Below the pieces are notes generated by a model that was not told where the DNA came from, searched no databases, and saw nothing but the letters and a program-made list of their open reading frames with translations. 64,000 bases of DNA from Hoyosella sp. YIM 151337 (GTDB taxonomy: Bacteria; Actinomycetota; Actinomycetes; Mycobacteriales; Mycobacteriaceae): the NCBI RefSeq assembly GCF_026041215.1, contig NZ_JAPEIQ010000021.1, positions 186,001 through 250,000 on the forward strand. The letters run 5' to 3'. This document shows positions 4,624 through 64,000 of this stretch, one piece after another. How positions within the stretch are numbered: the stretch's first letter is position 1; every line of letters begins with the position of its first letter. The position numbers and the translations under genes are program-made.

Positions 4624-5952
4624 ATGCCCCTTGTGCCGTACCTCAGCCGCTACTGGGACGCTCCGGACACCTGGACGCTTGACACCTACCTGCAGCATGA
4701 CGGCTACCAGGCGGCCCGCAACGCGTTGCGCATGCATCCAGATGTCGTGATACAGACAGTCAAGGACGCTGGGCTGCGCGGGCGCGGTGGTGCTGGGTTC
4801 CCCACCGGGATGAAGTGGGGCTTCATCCCGCAGGGCGATGACAAGCCGCATTATCTCGTCGTCAACGCGGACGAGTCCGAGCCGGGCACCTGCAAAGACA
4901 TCCCCCTGATGCTCGCCACGCCGCACGTGCTCGTCGAGGGCATCATCATCGCGGCGTACGCGATCCGTGCCAGCCATGCATTCATCTACCTCCGCGGCGA
5001 GGTCGTGCCAGTTTTGCGCCGGGTCCAGCAGGCAGTCGCCGAAGCGTATACGGCCGGGTATCTCGGCCGGGATGTCTTCGGCTCCGGCTACGACCTCGAA
5101 CTGATCGTGCACGCGGGTGCAGGCGCATACATCTGTGGGGAGGAAACTGCACTGCTCGACTCACTTGAGGGACGCCGCGGACAGCCGCGCTTGCGCCCCC
5201 CATTCCCGGCCGTCGCAGGCCTGTACGCCTGTCCGACGGTGGTGAACAACGTGGAATCGATCGCAAGCGTGCCCTCGATCATCCTCAACGGCATCGACTG
5301 GTTCCGCTCCATGGGCAGTGAGAAATCCCCCGGTTTCACGCTGTACTCACTCTCTGGCCACGTAACCCGGCCCGGCCAGTACGAAGCGCCGCTCGGGATT
5401 ACGTTGCGCGAACTCCTCGACTACGCGGGCGGTATTCGGGCGGGACACAAACTGAAGTTCTGGACGCCGGGCGGGTCGTCTACCCCTATCTTCACCGCCG
5501 AGCATCTCGATGTGCCCCTCGACTACGAGGGATGTGCTGCGAACGGTTCGATGCTCGGCACCAAGGCACTGCAAATTTTTGATGACACGACGTGCGTCGT
5601 TCGGGCTGTGCTGCGCTGGACGGAGTTCTACGCACACGAGTCGTGCGGCAAGTGCACTCCGTGCCGGGAGGGGACTTACTGGCTCGTCCAGATCTTGGAG
5701 CGTCTCGAAAACGGTCTGGGCACGGAGGACGACCTCGAGAAGCTCCTCGACGTGTCCGACAACATTTTGGGGAAGTCGTTCTGTGCCCTAGGTGACGGAG
5801 CGGCCAGCCCCATCATCTCGTCGATCAAGTTCTTCCGCGACGAGTACCTGGCGCACCTCCCGGACGGCTGCCCCTTCGACCCCTATCAGTCGACGCTGAT
5901 GGCATCCACACCCGGGGGAACTGGCCACCCAGCACAGGAGGGGGCGCAATGA
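4624..5952 (+). CDS. nuoF: NADH-quinone oxidoreductase subunit F
   Basis: The 51-kDa subunit that binds NADH and FMN and passes electrons to cluster N3. Visible motifs are the NADH/FMN glycine loop [13 protein letters not shown] (about residues 53-65), the FMN-site stretch [12 protein letters not shown], and the 4Fe-4S ligands [12 protein letters not shown] (about 339-350) with the fourth Cys in SFCALGDG. The ATG at 4624 is set by the ribosome binding site AAGGAGG at 4611-4617, giving 442 residues. A longer in-frame extension overlaps nuoE and is not family-like. Confidence 0.97.
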
Positions 5953-55215: not shown

Positions 55216-57690
55216 ATGACCGCCCGTGATCGGGAGAAAGAGACTCGCCGCGGCCTGCAGGATGGCGGTGATGACATGACGCTGCGCAGCCCCCGGGGTG
55301 GCTACTCGCCATCAACTGCGACTCGCCGCAAACTCGGGCCGCCGACTGCCACGACGAAGTTCCGGCCGCCGACAGCGCGCCGGACTCTTGTCGACCGCAG
55401 CAGGCTTCTTCACAGTCCCGGCGACCAGTGGCGCCGGCTCATCCTGATCCATGCGCCCGCCGGCTTCGGCAAGACCACGCTGGCAACCCAGTGGTGCCGC
55501 ACCCTCGAAGCCCGGGGCGCTGTATGGACCTGGTTAAGCGTCGATCCGGATGACAACAATCCTGTGTGGTTCCTCGCCCACCTGATTGAAGCCATACAGA
55601 AGGTGAAGCCGGCGCTGGCGATCGGCCTGGCAGAAATCCTCGAGGAGAACGGCGAAGAGGCCGAGCGGTACGTTCTGACTTCCCTCATCAACCAGATCCA
55701 CGAGAACGGTGAACACCTCGCTGTCGTCCTCGACGACTGGCACGCGGTGACCTCGCCGCAGACAGTCTCCGCTGTCGAGTATCTCCTCGATTACGGTTGT
55801 CACCATCTGACGCTGATCGTGACGAGCCGGTCCCGGTCTGGTCTTCCACTTGGACGCATGCGCATGCACGACGAACTCATCGAGATCAGCGCCAGCGAGC
55901 TCCGTTTCAGTGTGGACGAAACTCAGAAGTTCCTGGCGGCCGCGGGTGCTGCGGAGTTGTCCGATAGGGACGCTGAGTCCCTATGTTCCACCACTGATGG
56001 CTGGGTTGCTGCGCTACAGCTCGCGTCGCTTTCACTGCGCGATAAGGGCGACGCCGCAGAGTTGATCAGCCATCTTTCGGGTCACCATCGCGCGATCGCG
56101 GGCTACCTGACTGAGAACGTACTCAGCAACCTAGATCGCCGCATTCTCGATTTCATGCTGGCGATTTCGATCACAGACCGGATTTGCGGCTCCCTCGCAG
56201 GAGCGTTGAGCGGCATCGCACACGGTCAGCTTTTGCTGGAGGACCTCGAGCGGAAAGATTTGTTTTTGTACGCCCTCGATGAGGAGCGGCGCTGGTTCCG
56301 CTTCCATCATCTTTTCGCGGATTTCTTGCGGCGACGCCTTGAGCGTGACTATCCAGGACGAACCACTGAATTGCATCGGCGGGCCCAGGCGTGGTTTTCG
56401 GAGAATGGGATGCTCCGTGAGGCTGTCCACCACGCACTCGCTGCAGGCGATGAAAACCACGCCGTTTCACTGGTGGAGCGATTCGGGACGGACATCATCG
56501 AACATTCACAAATGGCGACTTTACTCGGCCTTGTAAACAAGCTTCCGGCAGGTCCCGTTGCAGCGAGCCCGCGGTTGCAAATCGACCTCGCGTGGGCACA
56601 CGTGCTTTTGCACCACCCCATTAAGCCGCTGGGCTCCGTATTTGACACCTTTGACGCAGCTCTTGCAAACCAACCCCTATCGAACGACGAACGGGAGGCC
56701 CTCAGCCTCGAAGCTGCGCTCGTGAAAGACATCGAAGCGGCATTCGCCGACCGCATGCCGGAGCTTGGTGAGAGTGCCGAGCGCTGCCTGGAAAAGGCAG
56801 AAAAGCTGCGGCCGTTTGTTGTCGCTGCAGCCGCAAATGTCGCGACGTTCAGAGCCTTCTACAGGTGTGACTTCACTGGCGCACGCAAGTGGCAGGATTG
56901 GGTGCAGCCGTATTTCCGGCAGATGACGGGACCATTTAGTGAGGTGTACGGGCATTGCCTCGCCGGGATGGCCGCGCAGGAACAACTCGATATCAACGCG
57001 GCTGAGTGGCATTTCCGGACCGCGCTGCGGGTTGCGCTACAGGGTCAAGGCGGCGCGACTTCCCACGCGGCGCGACTTGCGGGTGCGGTTCTTGGGGACC
57101 TTCTCTATGAGAAGGGCGAGATCGAAGAAGCCGAGAAGCTGCTCGATGACAGCTACAAGCTCGGCCCAGAAGGCGGCCTTGTGCATTTCATGCTTGCGAC
57201 GTACGGCACCGGGGCGCGTATCAAGCTGCTGCACAACGATGTTGATGCTGCGCAGCGTTGCCTCGACGAGGGCGCACGGATTGCGCAAACGCTGTCCCTG
57301 CCGAGGTTAGCGGCGCGTATTGAGAACGAGGAAGTTCGGGCGCGTCTGCATGTGGGGGAGTTGCCCGCGCCAGCTGATGGTAGTGCGAATGACTCCGAGA
57401 TCGCCGTTCTCACCGGGGAACTCGCACTCGACTCGGCACTCCGGAAAGCCATACAGGTGGGCTCACCTGAACAACGCGACGCGGCGTGCCGACGGGCTGC
57501 AGCGCTGGTCCGCGAACTCGAGAAAGCGCAGCGTCCACGCGCACTTCTCAAAGCTCAGCTTCTGCACGCGACATGCCTGCAGGCAGTCGGCCAGACCGCC
57601 GAAGCTGACGCTGTACTAGCTCCCGCTGCTCGGCAGTGCACTGAATTGGGGCTTGTACAGCTCCTTAGGGACGACGGGCCACCGAGCTAA
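55216..57690 (+). CDS. MalT-like STAND ATPase without LuxR HTH domain
   Basis: A large signal-transduction ATPase of 824 residues, as in MalT/LAL regulators. It has an N-terminal linker (TKFRPPTARRTLVDRSRLL), Walker A (IHAPAGFGKTTLATQW, about residues 77-92), Walker B (LAVVLDDWHAV), and winged-helix and TPR-like helical repeats to the end. In relatives the region ending in a block such as LGLVRPFLDEGP is followed by about 70 residues with a LuxR-type HTH. Here the protein stops at LGLVQLLRDDGPPS and no HTH is found in any frame up to 57876. It may be truncated or act through protein contacts. ATG 55276 is an alternative start. Confidence 0.75.
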   Translation: MTARDREKETRRGLQDGGDDMTLRSPRGGYSPSTATRRKLGPPTATTKFRPPTARRTLVDRSRLLHSPGDQWRRLILIHAPAGFGKTTLATQWCRTLEARGAVWTWLSVDPDDNNPVWFLAHLIEAIQKVKPALAIGLAEILEENGEEAERYVLTSLINQIHENGEHLAVVLDDWHAVTSPQTVSAVEYLLDYGCHHLTLIVTSRSRSGLPLGRMRMHDELIEISASELRFSVDETQKFLAAAGAAELSDRDAESLCSTTDGWVAALQLASLSLRDKGDAAELISHLSGHHRAIAGYLTENVLSNLDRRILDFMLAISITDRICGSLAGALSGIAHGQLLLEDLERKDLFLYALDEERRWFRFHHLFADFLRRRLERDYPGRTTELHRRAQAWFSENGMLREAVHHALAAGDENHAVSLVERFGTDIIEHSQMATLLGLVNKLPAGPVAASPRLQIDLAWAHVLLHHPIKPLGSVFDTFDAALANQPLSNDEREALSLEAALVKDIEAAFADRMPELGESAERCLEKAEKLRPFVVAAAANVATFRAFYRCDFTGARKWQDWVQPYFRQMTGPFSEVYGHCLAGMAAQEQLDINAAEWHFRTALRVALQGQGGATSHAARLAGAVLGDLLYEKGEIEEAEKLLDDSYKLGPEGGLVHFMLATYGTGARIKLLHNDVDAAQRCLDEGARIAQTLSLPRLAARIENEEVRARLHVGELPAPADGSANDSEIAVLTGELALDSALRKAIQVGSPEQRDAACRRAAALVRELEKAQRPRALLKAQLLHATCLQAVGQTAEADAVLAPAARQCTELGLVQLLRDDGPPS

Positions 57691-57718: not shown

Positions 57719-57823
57719 ACGCTCCAGCAACAGCCCGATCTCAGCCTTCCGGCGCTAAATGCAACGATCCGTATTGGCGCTCGGCGTCACATCAACGGTC
57801 TTAGCGGGACACCTTGCGAGTAC

Positions 57824-57860
57824 ACCATTCGGTCTACTATGCTCCAGTAAACCAACCGGT
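57824..57860. promoter_or_regulatory. Paired TetR-type operator boxes upstream of the OYE fusion gene
   Basis: Two boxes, ACCATTCGGT (57824-57833, followed by CTACTAT) and ACCAACCGGT (57851-57860, followed by ATACC), resemble the box ACCGATCGTT at 60230-60239 in front of the TetR gene, which is flanked by TATACC and TCTACTAT. The shared flanks suggest one regulator binds all three. Confidence 0.5.
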
Positions 57861-57876
57861 ATACCTGGAGGCTCGT

Positions 57877-59625
57877 ATGGCACAGCGCCGTGCTGACACC
57901 AATTCCACCACCGCGAGCGTCGCCGTACTCGGCCACTCGCTGAGCGACCCGCTCCCGCTGCCATGTGGCCAAGTACTCTCCAACCGGCTGATGAAAGCCG
58001 CTCTCAGCGAAGGGCTGGCCAATTCGGCACACGATCCCGACCCTCGCCTCGAGCGTCTATACACCCGCTGGGGCACAGGCGGTTTCGGTCTTCTTGTCAC
58101 CGGAAACGTCATGGTTGACCGCGCCCAATTGGGTGAACCTGGAAACGTCGTTGTCGACAGCCGAACCGACATTGACGCGCTCGCCCGGTGGGCGAAATCC
58201 GCACAAGATGGCGGCACTACGGTGTGGATGCAGATTAATCATCCCGGCCGCCAGGCTAATCCCCTTGCCTCGAACAGCCGCCCTGTGGCACCGTCGGCAA
58301 TCGCACCAAACTTGCCAGGCGTACCGGTACCCCGCGCTTTGACGCACACTGAAATTGAAGACATCATCGAACGCTTCGCGCGCGTGGCACACATAGCCGA
58401 AACCGCCGGTTTCAACGGCGTCCAGATACACGGTGCACACGGATACCTCGTGTCCCAGTTCCTGTCGCCGCTGGCCAACCAGCGCGACGACGAGTGGGGC
58501 GGTGACACCACGCGGCGCATGCGCTTCGCGCTTGAGATTGTCCGGCATATCCGGGCCGCGGTCAGCCCGGGATTTGCTGTCGGGATCAAGCTGAATTCCG
58601 CAGATTTTCAGCGCGGCGGGTTCACCGAAGAGGAATCGAGGCTCGTCACCGAGCGGCTCGCCGCCGAAGGTACCGACCTGATCGAGATCAGCGGTGGCAG
58701 TTACGAATCCCCCGCGATGATGGGACGCCCGAGGACCGTCGCTGAAAGCACGCGGGCACGCGAAGCATACTTCCTGGAATACGCGCGCACAGTTCGCGAT
58801 GTGACCGTTGGTGTGCCACTTGCCGTCACGGGCGGCTTCCGGACATTCGCGGGCATGAACGCGGCAATCAGCAGCGGAGACTGCGACGTCGTGGGCATCG
58901 GCCGTCCCGCCGCGGTCCTGCCTGACGCTGCTGCGCTTCTGCTGGAGCAGCGCAGCGACCGCCTCGACTCCCCACAAGTCACGCTTGGTGTACCCCGACG
59001 GCTCGCAACAGGGCCGTTGAAGGCTCTCGATGGCGCACTCGATCTCCAGTGGCACACCGATCAGTTACACCGACTCGGCGCGGGCTCGGATAGCGATCCG
59101 AACCGCGCAAAGTGGCGCACGGTCGTGACAATGGTGCAGCGCAATGGACTCGACGCGTTCCGTTCACGGCGTTCTGCAGCTCCGGTTGGGACCGCACGAG
59201 ATAAGACGCTGCGCAAATTCAAGTTCGAGCGTGCCGTCGGGCGATACGTGGCAAACCCCGCCGTCCGCGTACTCAACAACCTCGGACTGCGTACCTCATT
59301 GGCCACCGAGATTGAAACTACTGGCCGAAAAACTGGCGCGCTACGCCGAGTGCCCGTCTCCGCAGTCTTCGATAGGGACGGGGCATGGGTCATCTCTCAG
59401 CACGGAAAGCGCTCGGGGTGGGGGCTCAACATCACGGCGAATCCAGCGGTCCGAATTCGGCAAGGCAACCGGTGGCGCACCGGCGTCGCAAAATTCCAGC
59501 CAGATGATGACGTCCGTGCGCGCGCACGAACATTCGGGCCTAAAGCGCTCGCGAACATTACGGCCGCTGGTTTTCAGGCGCTGCAGAGCACACCGATCTC
59601 GGTACGAATCACGTTTACTGATTAG
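57877..59625 (+). CDS. Old Yellow Enzyme fused to a Ddn-like F420/FMN split-barrel domain
   Basis: A two-domain reductase of 582 residues. Residues about 20-390 are an OYE-type FMN TIM barrel (LSNRLMKAALSEGLA, WMQINHPGRQ, GVQIHGAHGYLVSQFLSPLANQRDDEWGG, VGIGRPAAVLPD). Residues about 455-575 match the deazaflavin-dependent nitroreductase (Ddn/DUF385) family (RYVANPAVRVLNNLGL, IETTGRKTGALRRVPV, WVISQHGKRSGWGLNITANPAVRI). Such a fusion could pass hydride between flavin systems or reduce one substrate twice. ATG 57877 follows CTGGAGG. It overlaps the convergent TetR gene by 11 bp. Confidence 0.85.
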   Translation: MAQRRADTNSTTASVAVLGHSLSDPLPLPCGQVLSNRLMKAALSEGLANSAHDPDPRLERLYTRWGTGGFGLLVTGNVMVDRAQLGEPGNVVVDSRTDIDALARWAKSAQDGGTTVWMQINHPGRQANPLASNSRPVAPSAIAPNLPGVPVPRALTHTEIEDIIERFARVAHIAETAGFNGVQIHGAHGYLVSQFLSPLANQRDDEWGGDTTRRMRFALEIVRHIRAAVSPGFAVGIKLNSADFQRGGFTEEESRLVTERLAAEGTDLIEISGGSYESPAMMGRPRTVAESTRAREAYFLEYARTVRDVTVGVPLAVTGGFRTFAGMNAAISSGDCDVVGIGRPAAVLPDAAALLLEQRSDRLDSPQVTLGVPRRLATGPLKALDGALDLQWHTDQLHRLGAGSDSDPNRAKWRTVVTMVQRNGLDAFRSRRSAAPVGTARDKTLRKFKFERAVGRYVANPAVRVLNNLGLRTSLATEIETTGRKTGALRRVPVSAVFDRDGAWVISQHGKRSGWGLNITANPAVRIRQGNRWRTGVAKFQPDDDVRARARTFGPKALANITAAGFQALQSTPISVRITFTD

Positions 59626-60184
59626 CGGGCAGTTGCTGCTCGATCAGCGTGGCGATCTGACGGCTGGTGCGCTCAAGCGGTGCTGTCGATTGTGCGGCGA
59701 GCGACATTATGACCGCCCCCTCAACCGCCGCGATGATCGTGGTGGCGAGTGCCTGTGCGTCCGCGTTCGGCACGCCTTCCTGCTCCAGGCGGGTGGTGAG
59801 GATTTCCTCCCACTCGTGAAAGGCGTCCCCCGCCGCGTCCGCCGCGGCGGGGGCTTCCGAGCGGCCAAGTGTCGCGGCCACGATAGGGCAGCCCGCCGTG
59901 AACCCGCTTTCTGACAGCACGTGTTTCCAGGTGTCGATGAAGGCACCGAACGCCTCGTCGACAGTGCGCTTGCCGACGAAAGATCTGATGAGGTCAGCTG
60001 TCGCGGCACCCGCAGAACCGACTGCGTTCGTGACGAGTTCCGCCTTCCCACCGGGAAAGTTGAGGTAGATCGTACGCCGCGATCGGCCGCTGTGCTCGAT
60101 GAGTTCCGCAAGCCCGGTCCCCGCGACGCCGTGGCGGCGCACCAGGTCGATGGCGGCGGCGATAAGGCTTTCACGTGCCTGCAC
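59615..60184 (-). CDS. TetR-family regulator next to the OYE fusion gene
   Basis: A TetR regulator of 189 residues. The HTH is RESLIAAAIDLVRRHGVAGTGLAELIEHSGRSRRTIYLNFPGGKAELV. The ligand domain contains TWKHVLSESGFTAGCPIVAATLG, a block common in the YxaF/LmrA-type group with a C-terminal TetR_C domain. The GTG at 60184 is chosen because GGAAGGAG lies at the right distance; a GTG at 60220 has none. The convergent OYE gene is the likely target, given shared operator boxes at 57824, 57851 and 60230. Confidence 0.85.
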   Translation of the reverse strand: MQARESLIAAAIDLVRRHGVAGTGLAELIEHSGRSRRTIYLNFPGGKAELVTNAVGSAGAATADLIRSFVGKRTVDEAFGAFIDTWKHVLSESGFTAGCPIVAATLGRSEAPAAADAAGDAFHEWEEILTTRLEQEGVPNADAQALATTIIAAVEGAVIMSLAAQSTAPLERTSRQIATLIEQQLPANQ

Positions 60185-60229
60185 TTGATCTCCTTCCGCC
60201 CGATCACAGCTGACCGACACGTCAAGTAT

Positions 60230-60239
60230 ACCGATCGTT
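60230..60239. promoter_or_regulatory. TetR operator box upstream of its own gene
   Basis: ACCGATCGTT is one base from the palindrome ACCGATCGGT and is flanked by TAT and CTA, extending the symmetry. It lies 46 bp upstream of the TetR GTG start, in a place suited to autoregulation. Confidence 0.5.
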
Positions 60240-60332
60240 CTACTATCTGTGCACTCAGCCTTCGCTCACGCTCTCGCACCATGGCGCACCCGTGTGCGAA
60301 ACTGTGCCGATAGGTAGTGGAGGTGTGATCCG

Positions 60333-60912
60333 ATGTCGGCAATTAAGGATGTGCTTGCCCGGTACAACGTGGGTTTGACGGAGCAAGTTTTTGGCGGGCG
60401 AGCTGGACGCAGCGCTGCGCTCGCTTCAGCATCCTGGCTCCGCGCCGCTCTCCGCTCACGAACTGGACTACCTCAGCAAGCAAGCTGGTGCGGGTACCGA
60501 TGAGGTGCTGGCGCAATGGGATCCCGTGGACGAGCAGCATCGGCACACCGTCGCCGTCGCCAGCTCTATTAAGGATCTCGTTGCCAGTTCCCTGAGCCGG
60601 ACGCAGGCAGCGCAGCAGCTAGGGGTCGACCCGTCGGGGATTTCACGCCGCATCCACGAGGATGCCCTGTGGTCGTTCAAAGTGGGTTCACGGCTCCGCA
60701 TTCCAAGTTGGCAGTTCGCTGGGAACGCCTTACTTCCAGGGCTGGCTGAGATCGTTGCGGCGATCCCGGATGATGCGCACCCCCTCGATATCGCCGCGAT
60801 GATGACCAGCCCGCACGAATTTATCGATGGCCACACGCCAGCGCAGTGGCTTGCTGCTGGCCGCGACCCGGGCGCCATCGTCAGCATGATTGAAGACTTC
60901 GATCGGTGGTAA
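60333..60912 (+). pseudogene. Antitoxin of a RES-type toxin-antitoxin pair, single-base frame break
   Basis: The reading frame starts at ATG 60333 after GGAGG (MSAIKDVLARYNVGLTEQVF) and continues in the next frame with AGELDAALRSLQHPG. The frames join if one T is removed from the T5 run at 60388-60392 (giving QVLAGELD). The rest is an HTH protein (SSLSRTQAAQQLGVDPSGISRRIHEDALWSF) with the C-terminal MbcA/ParS/Xre-like block HTPAQWLAAGRDPGAIVSMI. If the break is real, translation could still start at TTG 60391, giving 173 residues with the HTH intact. The toxin remnant overlaps its end. Confidence 0.7.
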
Positions 60913-61491
60913 AACCGAAGGTTCCTCGTGAACCGAATACGCCGCTCGCCCGCAACGACGGTGACATCGTCGAGTACGCCGATCCAGTGTGGAGAATCCA
61001 CCGAACCCGCGGTGCACATGTCCTGCTGTGGAACATGTTTCGCGCATTCGGTCCGGTAGCGAGCTCGCGCTACGATCCGCACCCGCCGCAACGCGGAATT
61101 CACCCTGGTTTCGGCATCATGTACACCGCATGCAGTGTGCGCACCGCGGTGGCGGAGGTATTTCAGACCACCCGCAGGGTCAACACCATGACCGGTGCGC
61201 CCTGCTTGACTTCGTGGACGCCGGTCCGGCCGCTGAAGCTACTTGATACGCGCTCACGGCGGCCCTGCGGTCGACTTGCCGGGCTTGGTCTCGTGCCATT
61301 CACCAACAGTGGGAAGACCTTGATGGACTGTGGGCGCCGTCCACAATGACAGGTGAGTCGATGCCGGTGCTGTACGACGGGACCGCAGCAGCGATCCCGT
61401 CCGCATCTGATTTTCGAGGCCTCTGTCGCATCCGCTGGTGTGGTCACTGATTGAACGAGCCGCCAAAACACTCGGCTACGGTGCGTACTAA
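60906..61491 (+). pseudogene. RES-domain toxin, decayed by two frame breaks
   Basis: RES-domain toxins are NAD+-degrading or ADP-ribosylating enzymes. The first part is in one frame from GTG 60906 (PVWRIHRTRGAHVLLWNMFRAFGPVASSRYDPHPP, MYTACSVRTAVAEVFQTTRRVN, RPLKLLDT), including the Arg and Glu regions of the domain. About ten residues of the family pattern are then missing and the match continues in a second frame (ALRSTCRAWSRAIHQQWEDLDGLWAPSTMTG), and after another break in a third (SHPLVWSLIERAAKTLGYGAY) up to the stop at 61491. The first-frame protein of 147 residues ends at 61349 without the last third and is probably inactive. Confidence 0.72.
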
Positions 61492-61516: not shown

Positions 61517-62503
61517 TCACTCCACCGTGACCGGAAACCGCGCCAGCAGCTCCTGAATGCGCACGATTTCAGCTGCGATTCGCTCCTCGAACTCGGCACC
61601 GGCGATGAAGTCACCAGTCCACATCGTCTCACTGACCAGTGCGTTCCAATAGTCGGCACCGTTGAGTGCTGAAAACATATCCACGAGTGCCGCGCGCTGA
61701 GTTTCCGAGATACGCGGTGCCATAAGCCCGCGCCAGTTGTGAAATTCGACGTCGTAGCCGTGCTCGCGGAGTGTTGAGGCGTCAAGACCAGGGAGGCGCT
61801 CCGCACCCGTCACCGCAAGGATATGCACCTCGCCGGCCCGGATCTCGTAGAGGTGCTCGGCTACACCGGTGAACGCGACATCCACCTCACCTGACACCAG
61901 CGCACCGAGCATGTCGCCGCCGCCCTCGTAAGCACGGTATTTGACATGCGCCGTGTCCATCCCGATGGCGTCCAGGAAAAGCATCGCAGCGAGATAGTCG
62001 GGGCCGCCTGGCTGTGAGCCGCCCCCGATATCGAGAGCTTCCGGGTTATCGCGGAGCGCTCCGGCGAGTTCGTCGATCGTCTGATAATCCGAGTCACGGC
62101 GAACGAGAATCGCGCCGGGTTCTTCAACAAGCTGCGCGATAGGGGTGAGCTTCTCGAGGAGGTCTTCCTGACCAGCAACCACGATATTCGAAATGGTGGC
62201 GAGGCCGGCTTGCAGGAGCATCGATGCGTCTCCCTCCGCCAGGCGAACTCGGTGGATCGCCGCAAGCCCGCCATCCCCGGGGATGTTGATCACCGAAGCC
62301 TGCTCCGCTAATTTCTCCTGCTCAAGTCCAATGGCGGTCAGCCTGGCCGTCTGGTCGAAGCCGCCGCCGGGCGGAGTGGGCACGACGAACCGCAGCGACG
62401 ACGGCTCCGTCCCGCCGCCGACGGCGCAGCCAGCGATGAGGGTCGTCAGCGCGACCATCATGATGACTAGCTGCCCTGGCAGGGAACGGAGCCGTCTTCC
62501 CAC
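61517..62503 (-). CDS. tctC: Tripartite tricarboxylate transporter substrate-binding lipoprotein
   Basis: The periplasmic-type receptor of a TTT transporter, held on the outer face of the membrane as a lipoprotein. The N-terminal signal with lipobox LIAGC (Cys26) is followed by the mature Bug/TctC fold (LRFVVPTPPGGGFDQTARL, INIPGDGGLAAIHRV, AILVRRDSDYQTIDELAGAL, DIGGGSQPGGPDYLAAMLF, YEGGGDMLGALVSGEVDVAFTG). It binds a carboxylate; tricarballylate or citrate are the known types. The GTG start follows AAAGGA. It begins 5 bp after the tctA stop. Confidence 0.88.
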   Translation of the reverse strand: MGRRLRSLPGQLVIMMVALTTLIAGCAVGGGTEPSSLRFVVPTPPGGGFDQTARLTAIGLEQEKLAEQASVINIPGDGGLAAIHRVRLAEGDASMLLQAGLATISNIVVAGQEDLLEKLTPIAQLVEEPGAILVRRDSDYQTIDELAGALRDNPEALDIGGGSQPGGPDYLAAMLFLDAIGMDTAHVKYRAYEGGGDMLGALVSGEVDVAFTGVAEHLYEIRAGEVHILAVTGAERLPGLDASTLREHGYDVEFHNWRGLMAPRISETQRAALVDMFSALNGADYWNALVSETMWTGDFIAGAEFEERIAAEIVRIQELLARFPVTVE

Positions 62504-62508
62504 GTGCG

Positions 62509-64000
62509 TCAGATCCTTTCAGACACCTTTACTTCCGTATTCTCCCCTTCGAGCTCGTCCTGGTGGCTGCGGCGCTTGCGGAAGGCGCCAATCACCGCCG
62601 GGAGGAGTGACATTACCGCGAGAGCCAGCAAGATCGCGGGGATGGGCTTCGTTGCGAATACTGTCCAGTCACCGCCAGAGATCTGCAAAGCCTGGCGCAT
62701 CGACCGCTCCATCAGGCCACCGAGAATGAGCCCGAGGATCAGCGGTGCTGCCGGGAAGCCGTTCGCGCGCATCAAGAAACCGATGGCACCGAAGGCGATG
62801 AGCAGCCACAGGTCGAACGTAGAGAAGCTCAGTCCGTACACGCCGACGACGCAGAAAACCACGACCAGTGGAAGCAACAGCGTTTTCGGAGTGTCCAGGA
62901 TTTTTGCGAACAGCGGGATCAGCGGCAGGTTGAGCACGAGCAGCACGACGGTGCCGATGTACATGCTCGCGATCACGCCCCAGAACACCTCTGGGCGGTC
63001 TGTCATCATCATCGGACCGGGCTGAACATCCAAAACAAGCAGCGCGCCCAGCAGGATTGCGGTGGTCCCGGATCCGGGGACGCCCAGCGTCATCATGGGG
63101 ACGAAGGAGCCTACCGCTGCGGCGTTGTTCGCCGCCTCGGGTGCCGCGACACCTTTGACGTTTCCTTTGCCGAATGTCTTGCCGTCTTTCGCGATCTTCT
63201 TCTCAAATGAATACGAAAGGAAGGACGCGACCGTCGCCCCCGCACCGGGGAGAACACCCGTGAAAAAGCCGAGTACGGAGCTGCGCGCAACCGGCGGCGT
63301 GATCGCTTTCGCTTCCTTACGGGTAAGGCGCAGTGACGTGACTTTACGCGATTCGCCTTCTTTGCCCCGTTTGGTAAGTAGCACGAGAACTTCAGCGAGA
63401 GCGAATATTCCGAGTGCGACGATGAGGAAGTCGATCCCCTCGAGCAGGTCAGGAAGCCCAAAAGTGAAGCGCTGGTTTGCGGTTTGAGTGTCGATGCCGA
63501 CTAGCGCGATCATCACGCCCACGACCGCCGCAATTAAGCCCTTGGTGATGTTCTTGCCCGCGAGCGTAACGACTGCGGTGAGGCCGAGAACCATTAGTGC
63601 GAAGTACTCCGCGGGACCGAAGCTGACAGCGACACTGGCCAGTGCTGGCGCGATCGCCATCAGTCCGATAATGCCGATTGTGCCACCAACGAATGAGGAG
63701 ATCGCAGCAATCGCCAGCGCCTTCCCCGCTTTCCCTTGCTTCGCCATCGGGTAGCCATCGAACGATGTCGCCACGGTGCCCGCGACGCCTGGCGCGTTCA
63801 GCAAGATCGACGACGTTGAGCCACCGAATATCGCGCCATAGTAGACGCCCGCGAGCATGATGATGGCGGTGGTCGGCTCCATACCGAACGCCACCGGGAT
63901 CATCAGTGCAATCGCACTCATCGGCCCCAGTCCGGGCAGCGTGCCGATAATCGTGCCGGCGAGGACGCCGATGAACACAAACAGCAGGTTTTGCGGGGTG
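62509..64000 (-). CDS. tctA: Tripartite tricarboxylate transporter large permease, 5' end beyond window
   Basis: The 12-helix permease of the TTT family. Signatures are GVLAGTIIGTLPGLGPMSAIALMIPVAFGMEPTTAIIMLAGVYYGAIFGGSTSSILLNAPG near the N terminus and the matching second repeat GFFTGVLPGAGATVASFLSYSFEKK and TLGVPGSGTTAILLGALLV. The frame continues to the right edge with TPQNLLFVFIG, so the first 15 to 20 residues lie outside. The order is tctA then tctC. The small subunit tctB is not between them and may lie beyond the edge. Confidence 0.92.
   Translation of the reverse strand, partial: TPQNLLFVFIGVLAGTIIGTLPGLGPMSAIALMIPVAFGMEPTTAIIMLAGVYYGAIFGGSTSSILLNAPGVAGTVATSFDGYPMAKQGKAGKALAIAAISSFVGGTIGIIGLMAIAPALASVAVSFGPAEYFALMVLGLTAVVTLAGKNITKGLIAAVVGVMIALVGIDTQTANQRFTFGLPDLLEGIDFLIVALGIFALAEVLVLLTKRGKEGESRKVTSLRLTRKEAKAITPPVARSSVLGFFTGVLPGAGATVASFLSYSFEKKIAKDGKTFGKGNVKGVAAPEAANNAAAVGSFVPMMTLGVPGSGTTAILLGALLVLDVQPGPMMMTDRPEVFWGVIASMYIGTVVLLVLNLPLIPLFAKILDTPKTLLLPLVVVFCVVGVYGLSFSTFDLWLLIAFGAIGFLMRANGFPAAPLILGLILGGLMERSMRQALQISGGDWTVFATKPIPAILLALAVMSLLPAVIGAFRKRRSHQDELEGENTEVKVSERI

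Follow-up and report, generated by a model that had tools for sequence, protein, structure and literature searches.

An Old Yellow Enzyme fused to a Ddn-like F420-type domain, beside an LmrA/YxaF-type TetR repressor with matching predicted operators in Hoyosella

Introduction

F420 is a rare cofactor, and the fusion gene described here, which is expected to encode an F420-using domain, comes from Hoyosella sp. YIM 151337, a host that we take to be a soil actinobacterium. The enzymes closest to its two halves have themselves been likened to one another. Passages of PMC5449967 describe the reduction of quinones, coumarins and cyclohexenone by FDOR-A enzymes, in which hydride passes directly from F420H2 to the substrate, and call the overall mechanism equivalent to that of the Old Yellow Enzymes (OYEs). 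Part of a review (PMC8498797) in turn presents OYEs and F420H2-dependent reductases as biocatalysts that can replace one another: they serve for the same reactions, and there is some evidence that their stereochemistry is opposite. According to the same part of PMC8498797, gene fusions are familiar in actinobacterial F420 biology from FbiC and FbiB, which the OYE-Ddn fusion resembles in this respect; those fusions make F420, whereas the OYE-Ddn protein is expected to use it, beside an FMN enzyme.

The closest described regulatory system is that of QdoR (YxaF) and LmrA, the flavonoid-responsive repressors of Bacillus subtilis. The section of PMC8481877 dealing with qdoI/qdoR places two operators ahead of the enzyme gene and one ahead of the repressor gene, and QdoR sits with a quercetin dioxygenase. 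In the window (the whole 64-kb stretch of DNA that was analysed), a TetR with the same PF21993 C-terminal domain sits with the OYE-Ddn fusion. No paper on a fusion of an OYE with an F420 domain, or on its control, was found in the open-licence literature searched, OYE classification papers included. Both domains and the repressor belong to known families; what this analysis adds to the first-pass annotation is the presence next door of an LmrA/YxaF-type TetR, together with matching operators.

Results

The features of the locus, in coordinates of the window, are the following.

57877..59625 (+), OYE-Ddn fusion gene, a single open frame of 582 codons
57973..58941 (+), Old Yellow Enzyme FMN barrel, residues 33-355 (Pfam PF00724, fold match 7fev)
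to 59151 (+), end of the OYE module including its helical extension, at about residue 425
59152..59304 (+), flexible linker and N-terminal helix of the Ddn-like domain, residues 426-476 (from pLDDT and identity)
59305..59616 (+), Ddn-like (FDOR-A) split barrel, residues 477-580 (Pfam PF04075, match to 3r5r)
59615..60220 (-), LmrA/YxaF-like TetR repressor, convergent with the fusion gene, the ends overlapping
57821..57836, predicted operator 1, TACACCATTCGGTCTA, an exact match to TANACCNNNNGGTNTA
57848..57863, predicted operator 2, TAAACCAACCGGTATA, an exact match, two bases ahead of the ribosome-binding site
60227..60242, predicted operator 3, TATACCGATCGTTCTA, one mismatch, just upstream of tetR

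The first-pass annotation had read an OYE barrel and a complete Ddn-like domain in one frame, and had proposed a domain search. That search bears the reading out: the frame is open from 57877 to 59625, starting at an ATG with TGGAGG ahead of it at 57866-57871, and its product matches Oxidored_FMN (PF00724) over residues 33-355 (3.3e-43, 148.7 bits against a Pfam cut-off of 27) and F420H2_quin_red (PF04075) over residues 479-578 (1.7e-16, 61 bits against a cut-off of 22). The NCBIfam model TIGR00026 also matches the second domain, at 63 bits against a cut-off of 46.35. A gene on the opposite strand was rejected as the coding alternative, since reverse-strand frame 1 contains stop codons; an antisense open reading frame of 332 amino acids lies at 58057-59055.

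The full-length AlphaFold2 model, built from 55 aligned sequences, has a mean pLDDT of 80.9 and a pTM of 0.69. It places the barrel first, then helices to about residue 423, the linker, and the split barrel at 477-580, with both folded parts mostly at good confidence and a weak loop in the OYE part at about 278-286. Values of pLDDT below 50 at residues 426-449 and 451-474 mark the linker, within which a helix is modelled at 440-468. Identity in the linker proper is 47-69%, against 65-84% in the domains, across four pairs.

A scan for relatives, covering one genome per species, found 478, of which the best 80 were kept as loci. In 71 of these best 80 the two domains are fused in one open frame, eight loci are OYE-only and one is split, which rules out a frameshift or an assembly error as the origin of the fusion; the possibility, raised in the first-pass annotation, that an error had joined two genes thus falls away. 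Fused relatives occur in Nocardia, Rhodococcus, Gordonia, Williamsia, Hoyosella and other genera, the nearest named one being that of Hoyosella altamirensis (81%). At 5237-5263 of locus L049 (Antrihabitans stalagmiti), an OYE gene is followed by TGA, GGAGG and an ATG-started Ddn gene in the same frame. A survey of the domain pair across actinobacteria, also suggested at the outset, returned a match across both domains in 50 of 301 genomes of the window's family (its own included, and one interrupted by TGA). In a survey of 396 genomes of the phylum only two spanned both domains, and both belong to that same family.

In the OYE domain, Q119, H185, H188, Y190, K238 and G320 are identical in all 54 non-gap rows of the alignment and R343 in 53 of 54, with residue equivalences judged by eye from sequence alignments. 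H185 and H188 correspond to the substrate-binding histidine pair of OYEs and Y190 to the tyrosine proton donor. A serine, S44, occupies in 53 of 54 non-gap rows the position of the class III cysteine. The OYE-type NCBIfam equivalog models all matched below their own cut-offs, and the domain thus falls in none of those named subfamilies. The nearest solved OYE is 7fev (OYE6), the top match in both sequence (E 3.2e-62) and fold, which shares the barrel and the H/H/Y positions (Foldseek E 2.1e-33, 31% identity over 452 columns, rmsd 8.1); unlike 7fev, the fusion has K238 in the place of an arginine, S44, and the C-terminal Ddn-like domain.

Because the 50 best matches listed by Foldseek for the full-length model against the PDB were all OYE-like barrels, the second domain was modelled separately (mean pLDDT 82.0). 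Its best structural match in VIA-align is Ddn of M. tuberculosis, 3r5r (Z 13.1, rmsd 2.8, 105 residues), and F420-bound FDORs come next. PNP-oxidase-like and heme-binding split barrels likewise reach Z 10-12 against it, so that the cofactor is not fixed by the fold alone. The domain shares its split barrel, and the contact positions GRK[ST]G..R..P and W..N, with the FDOR-A enzymes Ddn (3r5r), Rv1558 (7kl8), MSMEG_2027 (6wta) and MSMEG_2850 (8d4w), at 15-22% identity in structural alignments. It differs from them in the attached OYE, a QHG motif of its own, a shorter loop and the apparent loss of the helix-D tyrosines.

The residues of Ddn that contact the tail, phosphate and ribityl parts of F420 were taken from the portion of PMC3267046 that describes them. 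Equivalents of R54, R60, P63, W88 and N91 are kept in 39 of 39 sequences; that of K55 is lysine or arginine in 36 of 39, that of T56 is threonine or serine in all 39, and that of K79 is histidine in all 39. Compared with Ddn, the loop lacks two to three residues; it carries an invariant QHG and GW, the QHG.RSGW motif as a whole being invariant or nearly so. The sequence alignment to Ddn stopped short of helix D, whose positions were counted back from the C-terminus; at the positions so counted no tyrosine stands for Y130, Y133 or Y136, and a phenylalanine lies near Y136 in 38 of 39 sequences. By this count, the helix-D tyrosines of Ddn seem not to be kept in the fusion. The first-pass annotation had allowed that the C-terminal domain might lack F420 binding; at the level of sequence this does not hold, most of the F420-contact positions being kept.

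The host genome encodes a CofH/FbiC-type match of 530.7 bits in a frame of 907 amino acids and a match of 638.9 bits to F420-dependent glucose-6-phosphate dehydrogenase (Fgd), both above their cut-offs. Given these FbiC-type and Fgd genes, F420 should be present in the organism. Nine matches to PF04075 occur in the same genome.

The product of tetR matches PF21993 (6.8e-29, 100.6 bits) and TetR_N (1.2e-07, 31.8 bits), both above the Pfam cut-off. Among the best 80 of the 478 relatives, a TetR homologue lies divergent from and just upstream of the OYE gene in 70 loci, and in nine none was found in the stretch examined at E values up to 1e-5. The nearest relative, L001, has tetR downstream, as in the window. 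When the genes around the fused and TetR-linked genes were clustered, tetR was the commonest cluster (61 loci), followed by an MFS transporter (34 loci; Pfam MFS_1 for that of L035); other clusters recur among Nocardia. The transporter gene is a same-strand neighbour of the more distant TetR in 15 of the 34 loci with the MFS cluster, some of them near-copies. These gene calls came from a simple script that missed some genes, for example at L001 and L081. In the window itself, the seven proteins scanned include no MFS transporter.

Several other genes surround the locus. On the same strand upstream, 55219-57690 encodes a large protein with AAA_16 and MalT-like TPR matches that ends about 190 bases before the ATG of the fusion. 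A small gene pair at 60391-61349 (+) resembles a RES-type toxin-antitoxin system. The first protein has a weak helix-turn-helix match, below the cut-off; the second has a RES domain (Pfam RES, 6.3e-09) that covers only positions 1-76 of the 157 in the profile, so that the toxin is possibly truncated. TctC- and TctA-type genes lie further away, at 61520-63978.

A candidate operator palindrome, TANACC-N4-GGTNTA, was derived from 78 intergenic stretches. It was rescored on 70 of them, after removal of the stretches of the window and L001 (four) and of the Ddn-only loci (another four). Of the 53 divergent stretches with a TetR at 42% identity or more to that of the window, 49 contain the operator with at most one mismatch, and 42 contain at least two sites. 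These stretches, 9,829 bases in all, hold 91 sites, and the remaining 486,037 bases of the same loci hold 3. The operator was found in none of the 17 stretches with a more distant TetR (below 42%) and is missing from four of the closer 53; no palindrome is common to all 17 distant stretches, the best one occurring in 10. The 21 stretches without the operator include all eight OYE-only loci, for which the link to TetR is accordingly one of position.

With at most one mismatch allowed, the 64-kb window holds three sites, where 0.30 would be expected, and one of 100 shuffles reached three. These are the only such sites in the window: two precede the fusion and one precedes tetR. In L001, no site with at most one mismatch was found before tetR. 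The position of tetR in the window differs from that in most relatives, yet both promoters carry the operator. The arrangement (57821, 57848 and 60227) reproduces that given for qdoI/qdoR in the section cited above (PMC8481877), the likeness being one of layout and not of operator sequence. The TANACC-N4-GGTNTA sites are put forward as predicted operators matching the TetR. Across the whole genome the exact motif occurs in four places and a backward control pattern in one. The other two exact matches (C5 and C19) were considered as extra regulon members and set aside as chance, lying within or at the edge of coding sequence whose translations look suf-like and NRPS-like.

Genes for either half alone exist as well. 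The eight OYE-only relatives among the best 80 of 478 stop at about query residue 432, are about 68-71% identical and keep the same OYE positions. A TetR homologue accompanies all eight OYE-only Nocardia and Rhodococcus loci (L071, L072, L075-L080), and no separate ddn gene was found within flanks totalling 4 to 9 kb around each of 16 OYE-only loci (L071, L072, L075-L080 and L089-L096). Ddn-only genes, 52-68% identical to the C-terminal domain, were found in nine of 150 genomes at E values up to 1e-40 (L097-L105), a partial census, with more among the family matches listed; all nine are from one other genus, perhaps Mycobacterium at a guess. In L097-L100 the gene and a TetR homologue (48-51% identical) are transcribed away from each other, and the stretch between the two contains operator sites of at most one mismatch. 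A TetR homologue was found in none of the five more distant loci, L101-L105. With the exception of L102, these five loci (L101, L103, L104 and L105) have a presumed MenA-like gene no more than several genes away and a presumed nitronate-monooxygenase-like gene nearby; this shared neighbourhood is a hint of a quinone-related role.

In the OYE tree the OYE-only rows are nested within the fused clade, and the fused label requires five changes, at least three of them forced by starred branches. In the Ddn tree the Ddn-only rows lie among the fused ones, again with five changes, of which at least one is forced. The simplest reading of these sequences is a single fusion followed by loss of either half. 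Several fusions could still account for them, since the trees were built by a quick procedure that raised long-branch warnings and left many of the forks weak. Between the window and L001, dN/dS is 0.10/1.30 for the OYE domain and 0.10/1.69 for the Ddn-like domain, and in the four pairs compared both domains have a dN far lower than dS, with dS near saturation. A fusion with a TetR homologue (43%) also occurs in Sciscionella marina (L018, Pseudonocardiaceae), the other named loci in the OYE tree being mostly from Nocardiaceae, Gordoniaceae and Hoyosellaceae; its occurrence outside these families suggests horizontal transfer.

Discussion

The architecture of the fusion, its conservation, the type of the neighbouring repressor and the operator sites are seen in the sequences themselves. 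With a TetR of flavonoid-sensing type beside the fusion, and a transporter in some relatives, the reading that fits best is an inducible detoxifying reductase. The fusion is probably a dual-cofactor enzyme that detoxifies electrophiles (quinones, enones, perhaps nitro compounds) through two independent active sites. The N-terminal OYE domain would reduce activated C=C bonds, or nitro groups or quinones, with FMN and NAD(P)H, and the C-terminal FDOR-A domain would transfer hydride directly from F420H2 to quinones, enones and the same broad class of electrophiles. The two sites would act independently, on one compound or on several, so as to make two reductant pools available to the cell and possibly to form different stereoisomers. 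The LmrA/YxaF-type TetR would bind the paired operators over the fusion promoter and the one ahead of its own gene, and the offending compound would release it; we infer that the repressor in this way switches the fusion on in response to some chemical.

The occurrence of OYE-only and Ddn-only genes beside a homologous repressor indicates that each half can stand alone, and this suggests that the halves act in parallel and not through an obligatory coupling. Of the proposals of the first-pass annotation, the use of two cofactors by a single enzyme is plausible, and the idea that two bonds are reduced in sequence finds no direct support.

Coupling between the domains is one alternative. In its broader form, the Ddn-like domain would supply the OYE with reducing equivalents or with a half-reduced substrate, giving a dual-cofactor ene-reductase under an electrophile-sensing repressor, which we regard as unlikely; such coupling, if true, would mean two-step reductions, or an OYE that works at the lower potential offered by F420H2. 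An intramolecular relay, in which the Ddn-like domain passes the hydride of F420H2, or a shared substrate, to the FMN of the OYE, would entail either an OYE run on F420H2 or two sequential reductions of one channelled molecule. The retention of the covalent linkage over many genera is in keeping with a relay, and the low-confidence linker with its modelled helical segment would permit contact between the domains. However, OYE-only relatives at about 68-71% identity retain the OYE positions without a second domain, Ddn-only relatives exist, and in the passages cited from PMC5449967 the FDOR-A hydride goes straight to the substrate, all of which makes such a relay rather improbable.

It seems similarly doubtful that the OYE domain alone is catalytic and that the Ddn-like domain, its turnover lost, serves in oligomerisation, in membrane or substrate binding, or in regulation. 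The apparent replacement of the helix-D tyrosines, the histidine at the position of K79 and a loop shorter by about two to three residues would suit a domain that no longer turns over, as would the OYE-only genes within the fused clade, where the domain looks to have been lost several times. Yet most positions that contact the F420 tail and phosphate are invariant or nearly so, as is QHG.RSGW, dN is well below dS in this very domain, and four of the nine Ddn-only loci retain a homologous repressor and operator alongside. The weakest alternative is a role in metabolism instead of detoxification, for example as an enzyme dedicated to the reduction of menaquinone, steroids or secondary metabolites. 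It could draw on the presumed MenA-like and nitronate-monooxygenase-like genes near four Ddn-only loci, but is very improbable when no neighbour of the fused and TetR-linked genes is nearly as frequent as tetR (61 loci against 34 for MFS, adjacent in 15) and when the fusion is patchy in its own family, at 50 of 301 genomes.

On the preferred reading of an inducible reductase with two independent sites, the natural fusion and its single-domain versions beside homologous repressors provide a system in which to ask why both kinds of enzyme are used, and what compound both evolved to remove. This would place F420 enzymes in a defined, inducible physiological context, and it may yield a self-contained dual-cofactor biocatalyst together with a biosensor in the form of the TetR with its operators.
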